From the NCBI RefSeq assembly GCF_026151205.1, contig NC_087080.1, forward strand, positions 3,141,096 through 3,205,095: a DNA stretch of 64,000 bases, read 5' to 3'. The DNA is from Bolinopsis microptera (taxonomy: Eukaryota > Ctenophora > Tentaculata > Lobata > Bolinopsidae). The notes beneath the pieces were generated by a model. The model made no database searches. It had not been told where the DNA came from and was given only the letters and a program-made list of their open reading frames with translations. A program made the position numbers and the translations under genes. Positions 9,835 through 56,992 of this stretch are shown one piece after another. Numbering within the stretch: the first letter of the stretch is position 1; each line of letters begins with the position of its first letter.

Positions 9835-10875
9835 ACCATGCGTTTGAGGAACTGTGCAAAACGCTAGACTCGGAAGACACACAGAGAAATAGTCTATCAT
9901 CTTTTTATGTTCGACATTCATGACCACATTAAATATACAGCGAATACCAGAATGTTGGACCTTTCACCCAACATTAGTAATAACATCAGTTGGCGGCAAT
10001 GCACCCGGCATCTAGTGGAGTCTTATGTAGTATTTATCAAAAAGAGGATATGAATAGATAAACTAAATTGTGGTAAATAAGATCATGCCATAGATCAGTG
10101 ATAAATGATGGAAAATGAAGTTAATGACTGCCACATCATCTGAACTGTAATTAGAGGAACAACAAAGGGCAAGTTTAAATTTAAGTTTGAGGATTAAATT
10201 TCATTAACTGAACAGCGCTTGCGCGCTTTCCTCTCGTGTAGAAATTGTTGTAGCTTTCTTTATTTCTCTGATTAACTGACATTCGGCGCCGCGCGCTCCA
10301 CACAGTGAAATTACGTAAGACCTATCATTTATATAATCGTCATTTCCCCATGACTTTTAAATACGGAAACCATGCCCGTCTCAACATGAACAGTGGGCAT
10401 TTTCCAAAGAAAATGACCCACACAAGGAAAATAACAACACGGAATTTTATTTTGAGAATTATAAAATCAAATTAAGCAATGTTCTTCACTTCGAGTCTTT
10501 TTCTCCTGACTGAAGTCGGCCTGATACCCATGGCGATCAGCAATGGCGCGTTGTCTGTATCTGTGGATGGGCAAATTAGCAAATAATAATTATTGCAATC
10601 AAGCATCATTACCAAGAAAAAAGTGACTCAACCTAAAACTTGAGAGGAAAACAGCTTCCTGTTTGTAATTTTCGTCGTGATTTCTTTAAAAAGTTAAGGT
10701 ACTCTGAAGTTTCAGACATCAAAGTTACCAAATGGCGAGAAATCGATAAGCTTACGAACAGAACAAGGCTGTCGGCTGATGTGAAAAATGTATCCCTTGA
10801 CTGATGGAAACAAAACAATTTCATAAATGTCACCTGTATCATGGTTATTAGGCCCGGTTTAAGGCCGTCCACATG
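9835..10875. other. Region 3' of eRF1, nothing identified
   Basis: Contains small GC-rich patches (for example GCGCTTGCGCGC near 10207) but no supported gene. The part next to 10876 is expected to be the eRF1 3' UTR; no unambiguous poly(A) signal was assigned. Confidence 0.5.
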
Positions 10876-24640: not shown

Positions 24641-27600
24641 CTAAACACTGGGTCGTATCAGGGCGCTGTTCTCTTCTTCGATACAAAGACTAACATCATT
24701 ACTTCTTGAAGATGTTGTGGCAGGGGTCTCCCCCTCCTCCCCCTCTTCTTCAGGCACGGGGGACGCGGTGCGGCTGTTGCAGCAGCTACCCGAACTGTTA
24801 CTACTACCACTACTACTTCCACTGCTCCAGTAGCTTGAAACTGCAGAAAAGGTTTGTTTGAAAGTTTTTGGGATTTCGAGAAGCGAGCTAAGTGCATATC
24901 GTCACGTTTTATCAAATAATTAAATTAAAAGTATGAAATTTACATCGTTATTAATTAAGAACTAAATGACTCATAGTAATTCTGCGAAGAAAACATAATA
25001 AAATTATCAAGTTTCTTTATATCAATATCAATCAAATCAACTTAATGAGATTCATTGAATTCCCGATCTCTACTCACTGGAACTGTAGTCTATGTATTGT
25101 TTTAGCAGTTTCATCATGTTCTTGTTTTTGTTGTCAAACGCTACAGCAAGACATGTTCTACCATCGTAATCTCCCGAGTGTATGTTGATCCCTACAACAG
25201 ATCATACAATCTTTACATTCAACAAATTATAACATATGTAATAAATGATAAACAACCATCTTTCTTAGAATTTTCTGTGACCAAACTTAAGAATGTATTA
25301 CTATTGATTATTCGTTTAATCGTTCATCGCCTGACAAGGATTGAAACTTATGTCCTACTAACAGAAAACAAGAATGATCTCAACCAACAGTTACCCTACT
25401 ACTTAAGTGAGCATGTACCTGCGTTCACAAGACGTTGAATCATCTCAAAGTCGTTACTAAAAACAGCCCAGCACAACTCTGAAACCTGAATGGAGTTGGG
25501 TTAAGAACATATAAGTGATACGATAGTTAAACTTGTAGCTGTAGAAGCTTTCAATAAACATGTGTTAGTCAAAATTACAGTACAATGTCAATAAACCTGC
25601 ATCTCCAGCGGTAAACACAGCTGGGCTCCCTGGTCCAGCAGGAACTCACACACGTCATCGTGCTCACTTTTACATGCCTCCAGTAGGGGCGAGTAACCGA
25701 ACCTGGTCACAAGATTGTAAGTCAGATCACGTGATCAGATTAAATAGATTTAAAACGTTCATGCTTTAACAATTTGATCGGTTATATTGTTGATGTATGC
25801 CCAAATAGGTTTAACTTTGCGATGATGATGTGTCGAAAATAGGGTTTATCGTGTTGAAGTCATTTGAGCGCGTAATTGTAATTTATACCTGTCGATTATA
25901 ATTATAATTATAATTACCTGTCGATAGCATTAATGTTAGCGTTATTCCAGCAGAGAGTTTTTACTGTTGCTATGTCTCCCGTAGCGCATGCTATGTGAAG
26001 TGGTGTCCGCAAATCATAGTCCGCCACCTGGGGTTAGCAATTAGTAATTAGTAATGAGAAATTAGTAATAAGTAATTAGAAATTAGTAATTAGTAATTGG
26101 TAATTAATAATTAGTAAACAGTTAATATTAATTAGTAAATAGTAATGGGAAATAGTAAATAGTAATTAGTAATTAGTTAATAGTAATGGGAAATTTGTAA
26201 ATACTAATTATTAATTAGTAAATAGTAATGAAAAATTTTTAATTAGTAATCAGTAATTAGTAAATAGTAATTAATAATAATTAATAATTAATAAATAGAA
26301 TCCTACTAAAAACTGGTCTCTGAGATCACTGTTACGCAAACTTAATCCTCGGCCACTGTGGTCAACTTAACTGCGAAACTTATTTTGCCAATAAAGGCAG
26401 CAAAATGTAGACTTACATTCAAGTCGATGAGAACGTTCTCTTTGATAAGGATGTGCATGATATCCCTCTCTTTTTTAGCGACCACCTCGCAGACAAGGGA
26501 TGGTAGTAAGGCCTGGAGATAAAGGGGTTACAATAAAAAAAATAAAAACAAAGCAATATCAGATATGGGAAAATCTATGTATGGAAATAAGCTTTTTTTT
26601 GTCACGTGATGAAACGCTATCACCCCTCGAGCTTTTCACAAATTTTGGAATCAATTTGTTTGCTTGTGTGTACCTTGTATTACAATTTACTTGTACTCTT
26701 GTCTTATTAGTTGAGATTGTTATAATTACTGCATTCTGCAAATACCACAGCTTATTTTCTAAATCGCGTTTATTATATGTAGTAAATCCTGAAGAGACAT
26801 GCTGAATGGTGAATGATACATTATCCATCCTTTTATTGACGGACCTTATTTGATTAATTAGCCCTCTACTGCCTATAATTAGGACCGTTCTTTGTTCCAA
26901 CCCTAATTTCGTTGTTTATCGTACTCATATTAGAAAATTATAGTCGGGTGGTAAGACAAAGAAATATAATCAAACTCTGAGATAATAATAAAATTATTAG
27001 AATATATAAGATATTTTGGAAGACTTTTGAAGAGGAGCTTTTCTGCCCTCCCCTTTGACCTAAATTTCGCGGTTTTTACTGAAATTTTGACCAGTGACCA
27101 ATCAGTGAGGTCGGTGATAATGACACAAGTCGCCATCAACTATCAAGGCGGTACTGGAAGCAGTATTTCCTTCATGACTAGCTCCTATTACGCTAATTAT
27201 GCTATAGATGTTCAAAACTTGGGTTATGATTGATATTTTGGGATGCGGTTAAAAGTATCGATCATTGAATAGTATAGTGATTACTCAAAACACGGTTCAC
27301 AGTGGTGCTCAAGGCTCGACCGAGTCCTCAGCCTCGGTCAGGAAGACAATTCCTCGGTTTGCCTCGGCCTCAGTTTAATCAAAGCAAAATTTCCTCGGCC
27401 TCGGTCGCAAATCCTGCCCTCGGTCGACCCTTGGTGGTGCTACATGATAAAGAGAAATTGGGACATAATACTGATTTTAAAATTCCTGAGTATAGCTGCA
27501 TTTCGACCAGTGACCTTCTAGTTACTAGTATTACATCATACATGTATGATTATGCAATATAATACAATATTTAATTTTAATGAGTCTTTAGTAATATAAT

Positions 27601-30600
27601 ACAATAGTCCATAGCTCAATATTTTATTTCAGACTAGTCTTAAATACTGGGGGTAAATGGGGGAATTTCTGGATATATTTTCTTGGTATGGGAGAATTTG
27701 TTGCTAATTCTAGTGGAGTTGGTTTATCTAATAAGTATACCTTACCATACTTTACTTGAACGGGCATTTATTGGACGCTGGAGGCCCTTATAACTTAATA
27801 ACGTTTATTTTAATGTCCGTTCAAATAAAGTCGGTCCGTTTATGATCCGTTAAAATTTCTTTCCCAAACTTATTGTATGCACTACGAACTTATTGGCCAG
27901 GATATGATTACTTATATTTTGTGGTTCGTTTAGTTTACTAGTTTAGTTTAAATGCAACCAATTGCCAAGTTACATCAAAACTGTGTCTGAATGCACTTTT
28001 GTTAAGGAATAATTTTATATCCTGCCTTGAAACTTTTACATAGTGGCCAAATCAAAACTCGCGAGCAGCCCTGATTTGAGCAATTTGCCCTTCTACTTAT
28101 TACTAAGGTATTCCATAATTTTACATTACTTTTGTCGGATGATTTGAGTTCACCATAACATTGCAAGTCTTGTAATCTTCCTATCTTTGATAAGTTTGGT
28201 ACAAACGATTGTGAGTGATCAAGCATACATGGTCTAATGACTATCAGTGAGAATATAAAACAGAAAATTCACCATAATCTTATCCTTATCATCAGTCCTC
28301 ATGATGTGCCTGATGATTCCCTCTAGGATGACTGGGTCTATCTTCATATGCTGACGACTCCTTTTGCCATGCTGGTGTCTGTTCCTCATCAGTTCGGCGC
28401 TTTGATCAATCTCTGATAGAATTTGTGAATCAGTGATTTTTACCACATTATGATGACATTAATGATGATTATCTGAGGGTTCACGATTAGGTGAACTGGG
28501 TTATTTATCATGCAAAAACGCCATTTTGGTCAACCTTAACCGAAATAGATTCAAGTTAAACTGAAATTCAGTAAGTTTTTACTTTTCTTAACGTCTTTAA
28601 CAGGCTGCAGGTCCTGAACAGTTTTCCCGTAGCATTCTGAAGGTTTCTTACCCCATCTGTCTGAAGTTATGTAGTCATTTTAAAGCATTGCAATTAAATT
28701 CTGTTTTATATTTAATTTGAAGTTGAGCTGTGATTTTTCAGTAAAATGAACCAACAAACACAGATCACGATATGTCGTGCCAGTCCACTGAACTCTGCAA
28801 TAATCTCACAGTACGCGACACCCACAGTGGATACCACTGTATAAATCTGCATAGATTCTTTAGAAAGACACACACGTCAGAGGTGGCTATTATATTCCCA
28901 CATAACATGGTGATAGTCATAGTAACTGTACCTTCAACCTCTTTCTTAGGCGCATAACGTTTGAGGAAATTGATCATCTTGTCGTTTTTCTTAGAGTACG
29001 CAATGTGTAGAGGTGTCCTGTTGTCGTAGTCACTCGAGTTGGGATCCGCACCACAATCTAACCAAATCTGGGGGATTAACTGTTTTTAATATCCAAGGTT
29101 GAGCAATTTTCCAATAAAAATCAACCTTTCATTCATTGAACAATAACTCAGTGACCTAGTATGGTTATGACGTCACCTTCGTAACAGATATATGTTTAAT
29201 CTCATTTCCCATCTGCTTAGTTCTGTCGGACAATTTCAATTGATGTAGAAGACATGCGACCAGACGTTTATTGCTTGTTCAGGCACGTGATGAATTGAAA
29301 CCCAATCGCAATATTCGGAGAACAAATAGTACTATTAGTTCGTAGAATGGGCTTAGTTATCCGACCTTAATTTCAGGGAAACCTCACGCACTCCTCCAAA
29401 TATCTTGTTCTTCTATAGCCATTAATATCAATCTAGTGATTGAACCAAGTATCAGTGATGAGTGAGATGCATAGTTATATTATATTCACCATTATAGTAA
29501 GGCGATCTTTGTCAAGCACTTTCCGTTCTAAACGCAGAACCTCTAGAGACGGTTTTCTACGACACGTACGTAGTTTCAGAAGACTTGGTCTGTGTCATAT
29601 TGCTTTCATAAAATGACACGACATTGATCATACGTATTTATTTCACACATAAATATCATAACACGCCGCTTTTTGAGAATAAACAATTTTTGCATTTCTT
29701 TAGTTTTAAATCAACCATGTCTTGGCATTTTCCCTATAATATGAAACTACACTTTATTTTGGCTTATCAAGTACGGCTACCAAAGTCAGTAGTTTCCGTC
29801 ATGCTAGAAAACATTACGTTCAAAAACAAACTAGTTTCAAAAACAAACTAGTGCCATATTCTCACCATCACAGTTATAGGCAGTTGAAAAGCTTATAGTT
29901 TACTAACTTACTTTAAGTCGGTCGAGGTCGTCGTAAGCGACCATATAACACAGCATGGAAGATATCTGACTTTTCTTCAGCCTGAGTCTACCTCCTGCAG
30001 AGACACGTGAGTCGAATTAAAAAGTTGCTCTTTTAGAAGAACTCTTCTGTAATTTATGTAATTTACATATTAAATATATTAAATAAACTCTTTAAACAAA
30101 CTTAAATAAACTTAATTTAGTAAACTCTTTAAATAAACTCATAACACATGTCTGGTGACATAACAAAGAATCTGAAGAGCAGCTCACCCTTTTTATATAT
30201 GTATTTAGCAAGGTTAAAGTGTCCGTGAAGAATAGCGGAACTGAGGGCGTTGTTCTGGAAATTATCAGTCTGGTGAATATCAGCCTGATTCTGTAGGAGC
30301 AGATGTACCAGTTCCTCTCTGTTCTCAGCACAGGCCAGGTGTAACGCACATCTCCCGTCATAGTCACTGCAGATAAACATTAAACAGTCATAGTCACTGC
30401 AGGTATACAGTCATAGTCACTGCAGGTATACAGTCATAGTCACTGCAGATATACAGTCATAGTCACTGCAGATAAACAGTCATAGTCACTGCAGGTATAC
30501 AGTCATAGTCACTGCAGATATACAGTCATAGTCACTACAGGTATACAGTCATAGTCACTGCAGGTATACAGTCATAGTCACTGCAGATATACAGTCATAG

Positions 30601-31700
30601 TCACTGCAGATATACAATCATAGTCACTGCAGATATACAGTCATAGTCACTGCAGATATACAGTCATAGTCATTGCAGATATACGGTCATAGTCACTGCA
30701 GATATACAGTCATAGTCACTGCAGATATACAGTCATAGTCACTGCAGATGTACAGTCATAGTCATAATGTATAATGTATAATGTATAATGTATAATGTAT
30801 AATGTATAATGTATAATGTATAATGTATAATGTATAATGTATAATGTATAATGTATAATGTGAATAGGTTTACTCATCAGACAATGTCTTGCTTATCATA
30901 AAATTAGCAGATCTAATTCTATTTCTAGGTTACTTGTGGCCCAAAAAGTCGGCCCGAAATGTATTCTTTTTACTGTTGGAAAACTTGCCTTGCGTTTAAA
31001 TCAGCCCCTAAGTCAATCAGTTCCTTTATCTTCTTTATAAAACCATGTTTTGCGTAAGCACAAAGTAAAATAGGCAGAATGCTTTTTTCAATGTTTTTAT
31101 AAGCAGATGGAGCAATTTTACGTTTCCCAGTCCGTATCTTTAAATCCTGTGCAAATGAATATTTTACAAAATGTGTTGATTAATTATTCATAAATCTCGA
31201 AAACTTTTCGAAAAGTCGGTTACTGAAAAGTTCTCAGTTTCTAACGATAATGTTGGTATTATTAATTCATATTTCTGCATATAATCTAAAATAAAACTTC
31301 GTAATTTAACCGTGACTTGACTCACTGTTATTATCTTCTGGGAGAGCCAATAACGTCTGAGGTGATCCTCTGGTGTGGTCACTGACATGAGTTCTACTTG
31401 AAGTATCCGTCTAAACGCTCCTGGGGTGGATTCAGTGGAACACGCTGCTAGTCCGAGATATTGTTCAGACGTCAGGTTAATTCGAGTGCATCAATATTTA
31501 TTTTTTGCATTTAACTTAATTAATCCATATTAATTCCCATTCTGAATGTAAATTTCTCCTACCTCCAGTGATATTGAGGATAATAATGACAATGTAAGCT
31601 GCTAGCGGGGCTGAGGTTTCCAGGTTAAATAGCTCAAAATAGGAGTTAAGAACTATCGATAGGAAAGTCGTGAAGAAGCAGGCAAACAGACCAATTATCA
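24641..31700 (-). CDS. Ankyrin-repeat protein with an N-terminal membrane segment (5' end missing)
   Basis: Thirteen exons read in consistent phase: 31563-31700, 31326-31444, 30989-31146, 30188-30366, 29912-29994, 28932-29067, 28273-28412, 26417-26512, 25918-26027, 25597-25702, 25419-25485, 25078-25191, 24641-24840 (stop). The first exon found has two hydrophobic stretches (IIGLFACFFTTFLSIVL; LAAYIVIIILNIT) and starts in mid-codon, so an upstream exon is missing. Three blocks of ankyrin repeats follow, each with a DYDxRxxLHxA signature (SDYDGRCALHLACAE, SDYDNRTPLHIAYSK, ADYDLRTPLHIACAT), plus a last DYDGRTCLAVAFD. The C-terminus is Ser-rich then Glu-rich, ending ENSALIRPSV. The repeat style resembles ankyrin tails of ASPG-type and channel proteins, but I saw no catalytic or channel domain. 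The third intron has a GC-AG donor. Confidence 0.8.
26030..26300. repeat. TAATTAG-type AT-rich array in an ankyrin-gene intron
   Basis: Irregular AATTAGTAATTAGTAAT repeats begin about 10 bp from the 3' splice site at 26028 and run through most of the intron. Confidence 0.9.
27303..27443. mobile_element. Small GC-rich MITE (CCTCGG repeats)
   Basis: Imperfect inverted ends (GGTGCTCAAGGCTCGACCGA and the inverse complement of GCACCACCAAGGGTCGACCG) enclose repeated CCTCGGCCTCGGT motifs. It lies in the large intron 26513-28272 of the ankyrin gene, which otherwise holds nothing recognisable. Confidence 0.55.
30366..30762. repeat. 23-bp minisatellite that repeats a 3' splice site
   Basis: About 16 copies of CAGTCATAGTCACTGCAGATATA. 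On the coding (minus) strand each unit reads TATCTGCAG followed by TGACTATGAC, the same as the true acceptor plus first ten exon bases at 30357-30374. The array directly abuts that exon and so forms a ladder of near-identical 3' splice sites. Confidence 0.95.
30764..30858. repeat. 7-bp tandem array (ATAATGT)n
   Basis: About 13 perfect copies directly adjoining the 23-bp array, in the same ankyrin-gene intron. Confidence 0.95.
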
Positions 31701-38794: not shown

Positions 38795-39881
38795 TTAGCT
38801 TGGACTATCAACAACCTCTCGTACCCTACCCAGTGATGATAAGTGGTCCAATGTTGCAGACACAGAGTAAGCCTTTGTCCTAAGGAAACTCCTGAAGCTT
38901 GGTACAGTCAGACAATAAATGTAAAAATTGGACACTATGTTGAGAGTGGTCAGAAATTCCGTAATTCGTCTCAAAGCAATCCCTTCATCAACACCAGACG
39001 TAATGTTGATGTTAAACAGAAAAGCCACCAACACTACCCATAACGGGACGATGGAAATGCAGTAAACCACCGCTGTTACCATAACTGTAACCAAACCGTG
39101 CCACTGTCTTCTCCCTCCACTGCGTCGTGATACCCTCCTAGATTTCACCAAGTAGCACGATGTTGCAGAGGTAGTGACAATAACCAGTAATATAGGAAGG
39201 AGAACTGTCAACACAAGGGAAGCTTTAGTTATTATCATGATCCACACAGAAGAAACACCAAGTGTGATGTGATAAACTGAGTAGTTAAAGTAAATGGTCT
39301 GGTTATCAGAGAGACGGAGAGCAGGGTACCACAAGGATACCACCCAAACAACACCGCACATGACATGAACCCTTCTCTTCAGCCAGTCAGTTGTCTGTGC
39401 AGGGTACTTTAGCAGCAGTATTTTAGTTGTTGTTAGAACACAAATCAGCATGTTACTGACCTGGAAACTGACAATGTTAAGGAAGAAAACAACATATCCC
39501 AGTGTTTCTCCGAAGATCCATCTCTTTGTGATGAGGGAGACTGTAGTTGGCAGGACGAACACAATGGACCTCAACAAATCAGACCGCTATATGCTGGATT
39601 ATTACAACAACGTATCTGTTGAGCTTCAAAGCGTTGTACCCCACAGAGGCTACCAAGATGAAGATGTCTCCGATGAGCGATGATAGAAAAGCTATGAGGA
39701 AATACAGGATCCAAGCATATTCTTCAGCAGAAGATTCGATCTGATGTTGCGTATTTCTGGAGATCATGATTGGTGCGCTTTGAAATAATCTAGTGAGAAA
39801 TAATGAGAGTACGATAATAATTTGAAACATTTCAAGAAACTTATAGTTAACGAAGATAAAATTACAACATCTGGGTCGCAT
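38795..39881 (-). pseudogene. Class A (rhodopsin-like) GPCR with one frameshift in TM2
   Basis: The first frame (39579-39881) has a possible signal peptide from an internal Met (MFQIIIVLSLFLTRLFQSAP), TM1 (WILYFLIAFLSSLIGDIFIL) and the start of TM2 (IIQHIAV), then stops. The second (38795-39577) resumes without a gap at SDLLRSIVFVLP, the rest of the TM2 block, and continues through TM3-TM7 to a C-terminal tail. The junction (39577-39581) needs a net one- or two-base indel to restore an AVSDLL motif. TM7 reads NIVSNFYIYCLTVPSFRSFL, an NPxxY-like variant. The DRY motif after TM3 is replaced by TKILLLKYP and the usual TM3 cysteine is not seen. Ligand unknown. It is a pseudogene or a sequence error. 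Confidence 0.75.
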
Positions 39882-41052: not shown

Positions 41053-44000
41053 CTGAGTGAACTCCAATGACGAAGTAGAGCCCAGAAATGCTCATCATGG
41101 TGAAGACCGAGGGGAATATAAGGAGTTTAATTGAGACAGTAGTCCAGAGGGGGGAAAGGAGGATAGCACTGACTGCTCCTGCAACTGCTCCTATCCACGC
41201 CATTAGGCAGGAGATCGGCGAAGTTATCAGTAACCCTGGGGTTAATCAGCGTCAGTGAGGGATTACAAAAGTAGTATCAGTTGTTTCCTTGAGATGAGAT
41301 GATGTTAATACGTCAAACAACCAATTGTGTTCTTGATGTTCAAGACACAATCTCAGTTCATACAATAATGGAGCACAGAAGAACGCAGAACTAAAAGTAT
41401 TGGTAAATGTTGACAAACATATAGTGAGTGGGATGATAAACTAGAAGTGTTGGTAAATGTTGACAAACCTATAGTGAGTGGGATGATAAACTAAAAGTGT
41501 TGGTAAATGTTGACAAACCTATAGTGAGTGAAATGATAAACTAAAAGTGTTGGTAAATGTTGACAAACCTATAGTGAGTGGGATGATAAACTAGAAGTGT
41601 TGGTAAATGTTGACAAACCTATAGTGAGTGGGACGATAAACTAGAAGTGTTGGTAAATGTTGACAAACCTATAGTGAGTGGGACGATAAACTAGAAGTGT
41701 TGGTAAATGTTGACAAACCTATAGTGAGTGGGATGATAAACTAAAAGTGTTGGTAAATGTTGACAAACCTATAGTGAGTGGGATGATAAACTAGAAGTGT
41801 TGGTAAATGTTGACAAACCTATAGTGAGTGGGATGATAAACTAAAAGTGTTGGTAAATGTTGACAAACATATAGTGAGTGGGATGATAAACTAGAAGTAT
41901 TGGTAAATGTTGACAAACCTATAGTGAGTGGTATGATAAACTAGAAGTGTTGGTAAATGTTGACAAACCTATAGTGAGTGGTATGATAAACTAGAAGTGT
42001 TGGTAAATGTTGACAAACCTATAGTGAGTGGTATGATAAACTAAAAGTGTTGGTAAATGTTGACAAACCTATAGTGAGTGGTATGATAAACTAAAAGTGT
42101 TGGTAAATGTTGACAAACCTATAGTGAGTGGTATGATAAACTAAAAGTGTTGGTAAATGTTGACAAACCTATAGTGAGTGGTATGATAAACTAGAAGTGT
42201 TGGTAAATGTTGACAAACCTATAGTGAGTGGTATGATAAACTAAAAGTGTTGGTAAATGTTGACAAACCTATAGTGAGTGGTATGATAAACTAGAAGTGT
42301 TGGTAAATGTTGACAAACCTATAGTGAGTGGTATGATAAACTAGAAGTGTTGGTAAATGTTGACAAACCTATAGTGAGTGGGACGATAAACTAGAAGTGT
42401 TGGTAAATGTTGACAAACCTATAGTGAGTGGTATGATAAACTAGAAGTGTTGGTAAATGTTGACAAACCTATAGTGAGTGGGACGATAAACTAGAAGTGT
42501 TGGTAAATGTTGACAAACCTATAGTGAGTGGGATGATAAACTAGAAGTGTTGGTAAATGTTGACAAACCTATAGTGAGTGGGATGATAAACTAGAAGTGT
42601 TGGTAAATGTTGACAAACCTATAGTGAGTGGGATGATAAACTAGAAGTGTTGGTAAATGTTGACAAACCTATAGTGAGTGGGACGATAAACTAGAAGTGT
42701 TGGTAAATGTTGACAAACCTATAGTGAGTGGGATGATAAACTAGAAGTGTTGGTAAATGTTGACAAACCTATAGTGAGTGGGATGATAAACTAGAAGTGT
42801 TGGTAAATGTTGACAAACCTATAGTGAGTGGGATGATAAACTAGAAGTGTTGGTAAATGTTGACAAACCTATAGTGAGTGGTATGATAAACTAAAAGTGT
42901 TGGTAAATGTTGACAAACCTATAGTGAGTGGGATGATAAACTAGAAGTGTTGGTAAATGTTGACAAACCTATAGTAAGTGGGATGATAAACTAGAAGTGT
43001 TGGTAAATGTTGACAAACCTATAGTGAGTGGTATGATAAACTAAAAGTGTTGGTAAATGTTGACAAACCTATGGTGAGTGGTATGATAAACTAGAAGTGT
43101 TGGTAAATGTTGACAAACCTATAGTGAGTGGGATGATAAACTAAAAGTGTTGGTAAATGTTGACAAACCTATAGTGAGTGGGATGATAAACTAAAAGTGT
43201 TGGTAAATGTTGACAAACCTATAGTGAGTGGGATGATAAACTAAAAGTGTTGGTAAATGTTGACAAACCTATAGTGAGTGGGATGATAAACTAGAAGTGT
43301 TGGTAAATGTTGACAAACCTATAGTGAGTGGTATGATAAACTAGAAGTGTTGGTAAATGTTGACAAACCTATAGTGAGTGGTATGATAAACTAGAAGTGT
43401 TGGTAAATGTTGACAAACCTATAGTGAGTGGGATGATAAACTAGAAGTGTTGGTAAATGTTGACAAACCTATAGTGAGTGGTATGATAAACTAGAAGTGT
43501 TGGTAAATGTTGACAAACCTATAGTGAGTGGGATGATAAACTAGAAGTGTTGGTAAATGTTGACAAACCTATAGTGAGTGGTATGATAAACTAGAAGTGT
43601 TGGTAAATGTTGACAAACCTATAGTGAGTGGTATGATAAACTAAAAGTGTTGGTAAATGTTGACAAACCTATAGTGAGTGGGATGATAAACTAGAAGTGT
43701 TGGTAAATGTTGACAAACCTATAGTGAGTGGGATGATAAACTAGAAGTGTTGGTAAATGTTGACAAACCTATAGTGAGTGGGATGATAAACTAGAAGTGT
43801 TGGTAAATGTTGACAAACCTATAGTGAGTGGTATGATAAACTAAAAGTGTTGGTAAATGTTGACAAACCTATAGTGAGTGGGATGATAAACTAGAAGTGT
43901 TGGTAAATGTTGACAAACCTATAGTGAGTGGTATGATAAACTAGAAGTGTTGGTAAATGTTGACAAACCTATAGTGAGTGGGATGATAAACTAGAAGTGT

Positions 44001-46138
44001 TGGTAAATGTTGACAAACCTATAGTGAGTGGGATGATAAACTAGAAGTGTTGGTAAATGTTGACAAACCTATAGTGAGTGGGATGATGCTTTCCCATCTA
44101 TCTGTAAATAGAACATACGACATTCCTTTATACAAATCAATACCAAACTGGCTCCTAGAATGGAATATTATGTGTTAGTCTTAGATAACTTTTACTTATT
44201 CAGCAACAATTGAACAAAACAGGTCTAGGAAATAAAGTCATAAAGTAATAAAGAAATGTGAAAACTGATTGAAAGAACTTATATAAAAGCAAGTTGATCA
44301 CAATAATTATCTCACGCTGTAACAGAGCAGTCGGCACTACCAGGATTATCACAGTTAACAAAAAACATAATATTGTCAGCGTCCACACTGGTTGGTTTGA
44401 GGTCTAGGGTAGGAGCAGGACTTGTGAAGAGGTAGGTGCTGTGTGACTTTAGAGTGACTACCATGAACCCCACCAGTGCTGGGGCTAAGAACAAAGGGGT
44501 GCATCTTAATCTGATTGAGAGATAGTGGGTTTGAAAAGGTTGTAACCTTTAAATTGTAGTTCAGATCAGAAATCCTCTATTCGGGAAGTAAAAACAAAGT
44601 TTTAAATCAAAACTATAGTTCCAAACTCGCAAATAAATAGACAAATAAAAAAGAAGACTAACACTTTCACAAGGAAGATGCCAATAGCCTGGAAGAGGAG
44701 TAGAGTGAGTAAAGTGAAGGGGATTAGTAGCACTAGCTGGGGTAACTGACTGACATGATCCTCTTCTAAGTTAGCTCTGTACACTATAAAACCCAACAGT
44801 ACCCCTGAAAATGGAGTTATAAACATTCAAAATAGTTGTAGTTTCAAACATTCAAATAGTTTGAGATTTAAGTATTTTTGTTTCTAAATTCAACTCAAGA
44901 GAAGCTGACACGCTTACCTTGAGGGGTAGAGTCTATAGAGACTATATTATTATATAATATAGAAACTATAGATACTATATTATTATATAGTATAGAGACT
45001 ATAGAGACTACTACTATACCTTGGGAGGGATAGAGACCGTTATAAATCTGTTCGTCAGGAACTCCCAGATAGAAGGCCCACACTCCAACCCACAACACAC
45101 ACCAAGTTACATATATCACACCATACGGCCTGGAAAGTGAGGTGTGAACGAAAACACTGTGGATATAGAAAGTAAATACAAATCTCAGTAGTCATTAATA
45201 AACACATGATAACACTGTGGATATAGAAAGTAAATACAAATCTAAGTAGTCAGTATTAAGCACAAGGTAACATTACCAGCTGATCAAGTATTATATAAAA
45301 TGTGTTGTCAGGTAACTGAGGTAGACCAGGGACACAAGAAAATCGCGATTATTTTGCTCAAAAATCGCGATACCGCGATTTTTGACAGGCTATACATAAG
45401 ACTATACATAAAATTTGTCGCAAATAAAGGGACAAAATCGCGATTCCGCACATCCGCGATTTCCTTTTGTCCCTGAGGCAGACAGGTCACGTGATATACA
45501 GTGTTCCTTACCAGCAGCCTAAACAGATCCCAACGAACACACAGAGACCGAGAAAAGGATTGCTGATTCCTAACCACATCCCCAGAGACCGCAGGAAGGA
45601 GAATATTACTGAAATTAGAAATGTTCAGGTTAGATAGTTAAATGTGTGGAACTATCCCAATGAAATAGGCTAAGCAGAATATATAGGGTCACACTGTAAT
45701 TATGATACAATATTTGTATTTCTAAAACCAAAATGGACAGAAAGCTGGCTCACACGTGAGAGTGGTGTGTCCCCTAATGATCTGATGAAAGTCTGGCATG
45801 GTGCCAGAAAGGTATTTCCATGTAGGGTTAGAGGCTCTCTTGAAACGATTCTGGTAGTTGGTATTCCAGGGGCTTATTTCACTGTAGTCTGAGTAGAGAT
45901 TACGGTCTGTACTCTCAAACGGTCCCCTGAAAGGAATACCTTCAGTCACAATTCAGGTGATGTTTCGTTAAACATTATCTTTTAACATCTCAAATATATG
46001 TTTAGGATTGTTTCAAACGATAAACAGAACGGCCGGAAATAGACATGCCATATTTTCCCTCTTTCTTTTCAAGGAGAAAACATAGTGGAGCGTTGAGAAC
46101 ACTTACTCATATCCATCATACTCATCAGCTTCACTCAT
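41053..46138 (-). CDS. SLC14-type urea transporter (3' end not located)
   Basis: Passive urea channel of the plasma membrane; the family has two homologous membrane halves. Exons: 46107-46138 (ATG), 45754-45926, 45512-45608, 45020-45129 (or to 44918), about 44665-44804, about 44360-44510, about 44069-44147, 41053-41235. The first-half match is IFSFLRSLGMWLGISNPFLG, LCVFVGICLGCWPYGVIYVT, GLYPSQGVLLGFIVYRAN, which aligns with the LRG...NNPxSGxLILVGLL...SGLYGYNxxLVG blocks of SLC14. The second half has KGMSYVLFTDRWES (for GxGQxxxCDNPWTG) and LLITSPISCLMAWIGAVAGA. Phases agree except at the join of the fifth and sixth exons, where no canonical GT-AG pair keeps frame. Soluble N-terminus ~75 aa. 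Confidence 0.75.
41391..44090. repeat. 50-bp minisatellite (~54 copies) that repeats a 5' splice site
   Basis: The unit contains TGGTAAATGTTGACAAACCT then ATAGTGAGTGGGATGATAAA; variants are limited to a few positions (GGATG/GTATG/GGACG, CTAGAAG/CTAAAAG). On the coding (minus) strand each unit reads CACTCACTATAG followed by GTTTGTCAAC, identical to the exon end and donor at 44069/44068. The array fills nearly the whole intron between the urea-transporter exons at 44.1 and 41.2 kb. Confidence 0.97.
44918..45019 (-). repeat. In-frame duplicated exon end with a second 5' splice site
   Basis: After CCCTCCCAAG|GTATAG (45019) the sequence runs through two CTATATAATAATATAGT-like repeats to CTACCCCTCAAG|GTAAGC (44917). 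The 102-nt segment is open in the same frame and would add 34 residues (repeated SIVSILYNNI). The distal donor is closer to consensus, so either form may be made. Confidence 0.65.
45327..45475. mobile_element. hAT-type MITE (149 bp)
   Basis: Ends CAGGGACACAAGAAAATCGC and the inverse complement of CAGGGACAAAAGGAAATCGC, flanked by 8-bp duplications AGGTAGAC/AGGCAGAC (one mismatch). Internal CGCGATTTTTG palindromes. Eight-bp duplications and CAGGG ends are typical of hAT elements. It lies in an intron of the urea transporter. Confidence 0.8.
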
Positions 46139-55577: not shown

Positions 55578-56256
55578 CTTTAAAACGACAACTCCAGATT
55601 GCTTATACTAAGTTAAACAGTTAAAATACCACTGAACATATTTACACTCAAAAACTGAGTTACATCATTTCTCAATACGAGGGTCACAAACACAAACACA
55701 CAACGGAAAGATGTTTTAAAGGAATTTTAAAAGAAAATCAGATAATGTAGGTAATTACTAATTAGGTTTGAAGTGATCGAATCTTATCATAGAGATCAGG
55801 GTAGGTACTGGGTGCGGTCTGGAGGCTGAAACTAGATGGCCACTGATTTTATAATCGGAGTATCGGTTTATCGGCCGTCTATTATATAATAACACTTATA
55901 TAATGATATACCTAACACCATATAACACATAACAATACACCATTGACTGTGTTAATAATAATATCATTAACATTGATCTCTAAAGGGGGGACACAATGAC
56001 GATATTATGATATTACAGTGGTAATGGTTATAAATTCTCACCGCCAGTTTATTCATTTGCTGGGATGTTGTTGTTGTCTCTTGGGTGAGTTTAGTCCTCC
56101 TTGTTTTTAGAATTTTACCCAACTTGATGCCACATGTTGATCAAGCGGGACTAACGGTTTTATTTGGAGTGAAATAGAACGTAAAGTTTATAAAACGTAT
56201 CTCACCATATAAATTTATACTAAACTGTTAGTTACCGCGTATAAAAGCCTGAAGAA
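55578..56256. other. Intergenic, nothing identified
   Basis: AT-rich; no gene seen. Confidence 0.5.
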
Positions 56257-56992
56257 CTCTCAGGATAACTCAGGATAACTTTTAGGAGAAATCACAGGAT
56301 AACTCTCAGGAGAACTCTCAGGAGAACTCTCAGGAGAACTCTCAGAAGAACTCTCAGGAGAAATCTCAGGAGAACTCTCAGGAGAACTCTCAGGAGAACT
56401 CTCAGGAGAACTCTCAGGAGAACTCTCAGGAGAACTCTCAGGAGAACTCTCAGGAGAACTCTCAGGAGAACTCTCAGGAGAACTCTCAGGAGAACTCTCA
56501 GGAGAACTCTCAGGAGAACTCTCAGGAGAACTCTCAGGAGAACTCTCAGGAGAACTCTCAGGAGAACTCTCAGGAGAACTCTCAGGAGAACTCTCAGGAG
56601 AACTCTCAGGAGAACTCTCAGGAGAACTCTCAGGAGAACTCTCAGGAGAACTCTCAGGAGAACTCTCAGGAGAACTCTCAGGAGAACTCTCAGGAGAACT
56701 CTCAGGATCGAGAACTCTCAGGAGAACTCTCAGGAGAACTCTCAGGATCGAGAACTCTCAGGAGAACTCTCAGGAGAACTCTCAGGAGAAATCTCAGGAG
56801 AAATCTCAGGAGAACTCTCAGGAGAACTCTCAGGAGAACTCTCAGGAGAACTCTCAGGAGAACTCTCAGGAGAACTCTCAGGAGAACTCTCAGGAGAACC
56901 CTCAGGATAACTCAGGATAACTTTTAGGAGAAATCTCAGGAGAACTCTCAGGAGAACTCTCAGGAGAACTCTCAGGAGAACTCTCAGGAGTC
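56257..56992. repeat. 12-bp minisatellite (CAGGAGAACTCT)n
   Basis: About 60 copies with a few variants (AGAAATCTCAGG, CAGGATCGAGAACTCT, CAGGATAACT at both edges). On the plus strand every unit contains an acceptor-like CTCTCAG|GAG; no exon could be tied to it. The following 56993-57304 holds nothing recognisable. Confidence 0.97.

Follow-up and report, generated by a model that had tools for sequence, protein, structure and literature searches.

Minisatellite-like tandem copies of exon-intron boundaries, 5′ or 3′, have been described in amphioxus under the name of mirages (PMC3087553). They are known in Adh3 and in the globin genes BflGb6 and BflGb9 (PMC3087553, which cites Canestro 2002). 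According to the passages of PMC3087553 that deal with these genes, AG/GT signals are present in many of the units, haplotypes differ in array length, and splicing as followed by reverse transcription PCR appears regular despite the mirages. In the human gene IFI6 (6-16), a minisatellite supplies several splice donors and downstream units are used, giving rise to isoforms (PMC4526556; originally Turri 1995). Finally, the Rogers model, as cited in PMC3087553, proposes that introns are gained via tandem duplication of AG/GT segments. Here we analyse an array of this type in a 64,000-nucleotide stretch of the genome of the ctenophore Bolinopsis microptera (NC_087080.1, positions 3,141,096 to 3,205,095 of the forward strand; the window). 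A 50-bp unit, repeated 54 times, covers the end of exon 7 and the start of intron 7 of a gene combining a urea-transporter (UT) domain with ankyrin repeats. We conclude that the array is probably a mirage, that is, a boundary-spanning minisatellite produced by tandem expansion and tolerated by the gene, the first donor defining exon 7. The relevant features, all on the minus strand, are as follows (a slash within a sequence marks a splice junction).

25078-46138, minus: host gene, 21 modelled exons, UT domain then ankyrin repeats (tblastn and gene model).
44069-44154, minus: exon 7, 86 nt, contributing its last 19 nt (44087-44069) to unit 1 (gene model; UT match across the junction).
41389-44087, minus: minisatellite, unit made of 19 nt of exon end, then the donor and 31 nt of intron start (Tandem Repeats Finder and unit analysis).
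44019-44021, minus: TAG in unit 2, which ends the frame for any later donor (joining test; coordinates derived from the 50-nt spacing).
41236-44068, minus: intron 7, 2833 bp, of which the 53 extra units make 2650 bp (gene model and unit count).
41053-41235, minus: exon 8, acceptor CCCCAG/GGTTACTG (gene model and UT homology).

As in the amphioxus mirages described in PMC3087553, the units span a donor, here that of exon 7 as fixed by homology, in a small intron of an ordinary gene, and splice signals stand within the units. This array, with its 54 units of 50 bp, contrasts with BflGb6, whose two haplotypes carry units of 150-160 bp, 6 in one and 3 in the other. The host is a ctenophore instead of a cephalochordate, donor and acceptor arrays occur in one gene, and the present case is known from one assembly.

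Tandem Repeats Finder (TRF) delimited the array at 41389-44087 with a period of 50, 54.0 copies, 97% matches and a score of 5055, well outside what chance would give. The consensus of the unit, read on the minus strand, is ATCATCCCACTCACTATAG/GTTTGTCAACATTTACCAACACTTCTAGTTT. GTTTGT is preceded by ATAG in 52 of the 54 units and by ATAT in the remaining two; the complete CACTCACTATAG/GTTTGT is found in 50 units. The window contains the exact 18-mer CACTCACTATAGGTTTGT 50 times on its minus strand but nowhere on its plus strand, and the first 53 units show a mean identity of 0.983 to their own consensus. All 51 occurrences of an exact 23-mer from the unit in the 264.7-Mb genome map to this locus. 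A search for higher-order structure within the array, with 20 lags tried, gave nothing convincing (lowest p 0.04). The 54-copy, 50-bp minisatellite had been recognized in a first-pass annotation of the window, and the TRF result bears this out. In view of the two ATAT units, the accompanying statement that every unit carries the exon end and the donor is slightly too strong. The array had also been said to begin at the splice site; the junction indeed lies inside unit 1, but the repeat begins within the exon, at 44087. Its extension up to 44147 has to be given up, since 44088-44147 is unique sequence.

The position of the junction was examined by homology. Spliced together, exons 7 and 8 encode 89 residues, of which residues 7-86 align with positions 164-243 of the Pfam UT family, 80 for 80 and with no net gap. 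The UT score reaches 35.6 bits with the two exons spliced and 21.5 bits when the exon 8 part is taken by itself. Because the spliced exons fit UT across the junction, exon 7 ends at 44069. This agrees with the exon end, intron start (44068) and phase given in the first-pass annotation. Exon 8 was then joined to every GTTTGT site of the array in turn, 54 in all. The frame of 839 codons stays open for donor 1 only, whereas the 53 later sites all lead to a stop after residue 294, at the unit 2 TAG, exactly the in-frame codon that had been pointed out. Both the UT homology and this frame test support the earlier suggestion that a tandem expansion captured a real exon-intron junction.

Information on the age of the array came from paralogues. 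Two further relatives of the host gene were found in the genome at E ≤ 0.01, at C9:13.11 Mb and C5:18.19 Mb. The C9 paralogue has an intron of 166 bp at the same place and in the same phase, with no array in it (exon end CAATAG/gtatgg; next exon cccag/GGCTGGCA). Intron 7 of the window measures 183 bp once 53 units are subtracted. In the C5 paralogue, the frame is continuous and there is no intron at this position. About 150 nt of unique sequence separates the array from the intron 7 acceptor (41236/41235). Since the C9 intron is arrayless and the acceptor lies this far past the array, the array is most likely younger than intron 7. It would thus most likely have grown within a pre-existing small intron, as judged from one of the two paralogues.

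The following course of events can be proposed. In an ancestral intron of about 180 bp, a 50-bp segment across the exon 7/intron 7 junction would have been duplicated in tandem and may have grown to 54 units through slippage or unequal exchange, presumably under neutrality. Every added unit would have come to lie past the first junction, within the intron, while unit 1 retains the exon end and donor that were there originally. Splicing would most likely still occur at donor 1, because this donor closes the 86-nt exon 7. The remaining 51 intact and two altered donors would be intronic decoys, any use of which would lead to the stop in unit 2.

Several observations weigh against this scheme. The intron 7 donor is weak, with 4.0 bits the fourth lowest of the 20 donors of the host gene (generic matrix). 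As the same donor returns every 50 nt, exclusive use of donor 1 is not self-evident. Predicted folding of the RNA did not reveal better accessibility of donor 1, the unpaired fraction being 0.31-0.36 over donors 1-6 and 0.31-0.32 over donors 1-12. The use of downstream repeat-borne donors described for IFI6 in PMC4526556 also speaks against exclusivity. Finally, random placement, which straddles a junction in 9.3% and 4.2% of cases, would lead one to expect somewhat fewer than the two boundary arrays seen in the host gene, although the first of them had been preselected.

The second of these boundary arrays lies at an acceptor.

30384-30764, minus: mirror-image array, 23-bp unit repeated 16.6 times, spanning the acceptor of exon 12 and the first bases of that exon, CTGCAG/TGACTATGAC (TRF; 23/24 self-match at the acceptor).
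30188-30366, minus: exon 12, whose start is the last copy of the 23-bp array (gene model).

Sixteen AG sites of this array were tested. The frame is kept by the true site and by one located 30 nt upstream; the other 14 give a stop. The intron holding the array (30989-30367, minus) is of the GC-AG type, its donor AAG/GCAAGT following exon 11.

Boundary-spanning arrays were also found in other genes. The C5 paralogue carries a 52-bp unit in 21.0 copies (TRF), with 19 intact GTTAACG/GTAAG sites at 52-nt spacing. This array stands at the end of the exon matching window exon 15, and by visual comparison the exon that follows is similar to window exons 16-17; it therefore concerns an intron other than that of the window array. 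In an Arf-like GTPase gene (C5:2070663-2071300, that is C5b 70663-71300, locus L020; Arf, E = 4.6e-20), a 36-bp unit is repeated 8.6 times at a donor. All eight GT sites join the next exon in frame and each donor step adds 12 residues, so that alternative donor use in this gene would add 12-residue repeats. At C5:2.08 Mb, a 28-bp unit with five GTAAGT sites ends an open exon-like frame without a Pfam hit, and this array probably spans a donor. These last two cases come from 180 kb picked regardless of arrays (C5b, 100 kb; C1, 80 kb). Overall, among 42 arrays with units of 15-200 bp in about 283 kb, four span a boundary in genes backed by homology and one more probably does so. Outside the urea-transporter genes the count is a lower bound based on nine arrays read in their gene context: one spans a donor (Arf-like), one probably does, one, located inside an intron (C1 66597), may be donor-derived, and six show nothing of the kind. 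Because the units are unrelated, each boundary-spanning array represents a local event.

This recurrence, and the presence of both donor and acceptor arrays in the host gene, would also be in line with arrays being born preferentially at splice junctions, by some mechanism linked to transcription or splicing. Array units, however, show no enrichment in donor motifs (9 of 42 units as compared to 6.8 ± 1.8 in 300 shuffles, scored with a donor matrix). Nor are junctions more self-repetitive than array-free intron sequence, as measured on the host gene with the 9.4-kb intron 8 excluded from the intron positions. A self-match of at least 18/24 was obtained at 2 of 40 junctions versus 8.8% of the 354 intron positions outside three arrays. 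With arrays included, the value was 45.8% of all 600 intron positions; it was 0 of 300 in exon interiors. Moreover, a 50-bp unit placed at random in a gene with 20 introns such as this one would fall across a junction in 9.3% of cases. Junction targeting is thus unlikely, and random tandem duplication together with splicing tolerance suffices to account for the data.

Two possible duplicated donors were noticed in the host gene during this survey: one after exon 4, 102 nt on and in frame (44918-45020, minus; self-match 13/24), and one after exon 18, 29 nt on (25889-25918, minus; self-match 15/24). They were left uncounted, array-free introns often scoring as high. Two other arrays were also noted. 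The 24-bp unit repeated 14.5 times at C5:2010006-2010354 (C5b 10006-10354) translates, in an open plus-strand frame, to the repeat LSKVGDPG, and is probably a coding repeat. In the window, a 12-bp unit repeated 61.2 times at 56253-56990 leaves five frames open for 141-213 codons.

The first-pass annotation had proposed that donor choice along the 50-bp array switches the transcript between productive and nonsense forms. More generally, donor choice or array length could act as a rheostat setting the share of productive transcript. Donors 2-54 all reach the same TAG, and IFI6 offers, in PMC4526556, a precedent for the use of several repeat-borne donors. As in IFI6, the units at the exon end each present a donor; unlike in IFI6, any downstream donor of the window gene is predicted to give nonsense. 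Since all its donors are in frame, the Arf-like gene is the nearer likeness to the human case. The effect on the frame is nevertheless what any 50-nt unit with a stop would produce. In addition, the Arf-like array has the same architecture and is open at all eight donors, and predicted pairing is alike at all folded donors of the window array. Because the same architecture recurs elsewhere, with units that are unrelated and effects on the frame that differ, the array looks like a mutational by-product, and a regulatory switch would be highly improbable on these sequence grounds.

An array free of constraint in a dead gene would be another way to explain tolerance. Against this, the 21 modelled exons of the host gene (2518 nt) form 839 codons with no stop; all 20 acceptors have AG, 19 of the 20 donors have GT, and the remaining donor has GC. 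The UT domain (PF03253) covers residues 74-369 (E = 6.8e-15; 55.4 bits for a cut-off of 25), and ankyrin repeats exceed the Pfam cut-offs on its C-terminal side. The gene is thus very unlikely to be dead. A truncated gene or pseudogene had been considered when the C-terminal exons were not seen just below 41053. The idea was dropped because tblastn located these exons at 31427-25103 and the 21-exon model, which ends at exon 21 (25078), is open. The protein looks like a urea transporter, and urea transport can be predicted from its domain. The first-pass annotation had spoken of an SLC14-type gene; with the ankyrin fusion, this is not a plain SLC14.

An origin of intron 7 itself from the array, by tandem duplication of an exonic AG/GT segment, was also considered. 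The AG/GT-bearing units, duplicated in tandem as in the Rogers model cited in PMC3087553, and the C5 paralogue lacking an intron at this position would fit such a gain. Unlike in that model, an arrayless paralogue shares the intron, and no repeat unit, the last one included, supplies the acceptor. The C9 intron argues against an intron factory of this kind, and intron gain, largely refuted, is extremely improbable. Recursive splicing, in which ATAG/GTTTGT would act as acceptor and donor at once for stepwise intron removal, could draw on the AG abutting GT in 52 of the 54 units, but is scarcely credible with so weak a donor and no long pyrimidine tract before the unit AG (consensus, by eye).

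Some further observations concern the host gene and its arrays. The 50-bp unit matches the phage T7 promoter consensus at 16 of 20 bases, ACTCACTATAGG included, a likeness that could disturb T7-based library methods at this locus. Immediately upstream of the exon 4 acceptor, a 58-bp unit repeated 2.1 times (45153-45272, minus) contains TTCTATATCCACAG twice. A degenerate 7-bp array (26034-26278, minus; TTACTAA on the minus strand, 35.1 copies by TRF) ends 6 nt before exon 18; the TACTAAT in it resembles a branch-point consensus. Intron 8 (9.4 kb) contains two neighbouring open frames, one of 260 and one of 100 codons, which look seven-transmembrane-like by eye (38795-39881, minus); no Pfam family reached its cut-off with the 260-codon frame. 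Elsewhere in the genome, one glutamate-receptor gene had its best scores against the three ML032222a iGluR entries, from Mnemiopsis leidyi, above full-length kainate and AMPA receptors, with GNDCW in common. A second one scored best against kainate receptors, without preference for ML032222a. Innexins are present, some as uninterrupted frames of 430-469 codons, and a search of the genome for COX1 did not find it.

In the ctenophore Hormiphora, tandem repeats make up 13% of the genome and nested intronic genes are many (PMC8527503); the word minisatellite is absent from the main text of that genome paper. The literature searched yielded no description of such boundary-spanning arrays from a ctenophore. 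The window array is of a kind already known, and its degree, with 54 units, is striking. It appears to extend boundary-spanning minisatellites from amphioxus to another phylum.

A bolder view would make splice junctions recurrent birthplaces of minisatellites in this ctenophore, many genes carrying ladders of spare sites. Open units of 3n length, as in the Arf-like gene (36 bp, eight donors), would add a variable number of 12-residue repeats. Others, as in the urea-transporter gene (50 bp), would send a fraction of transcripts, dependent on length, into nonsense, and array length would tune the form or dose of the protein. We give this view a slim chance.

Competition between 5′ splice sites has mostly been examined with a handful of engineered copies. 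In this array, 52 intact donors share their flanks and follow one another, and the locus comes with its own readout, as only donor 1 keeps the frame. A ladder of 16 AGs at the exon 12 acceptor complements them. The locus could thus serve as a natural test of how cells choose among identical splice sites, with the effect of position almost alone. For the gene itself, coding sequence at the end of an exon has become part of an array that would evolve through exchange among its units.

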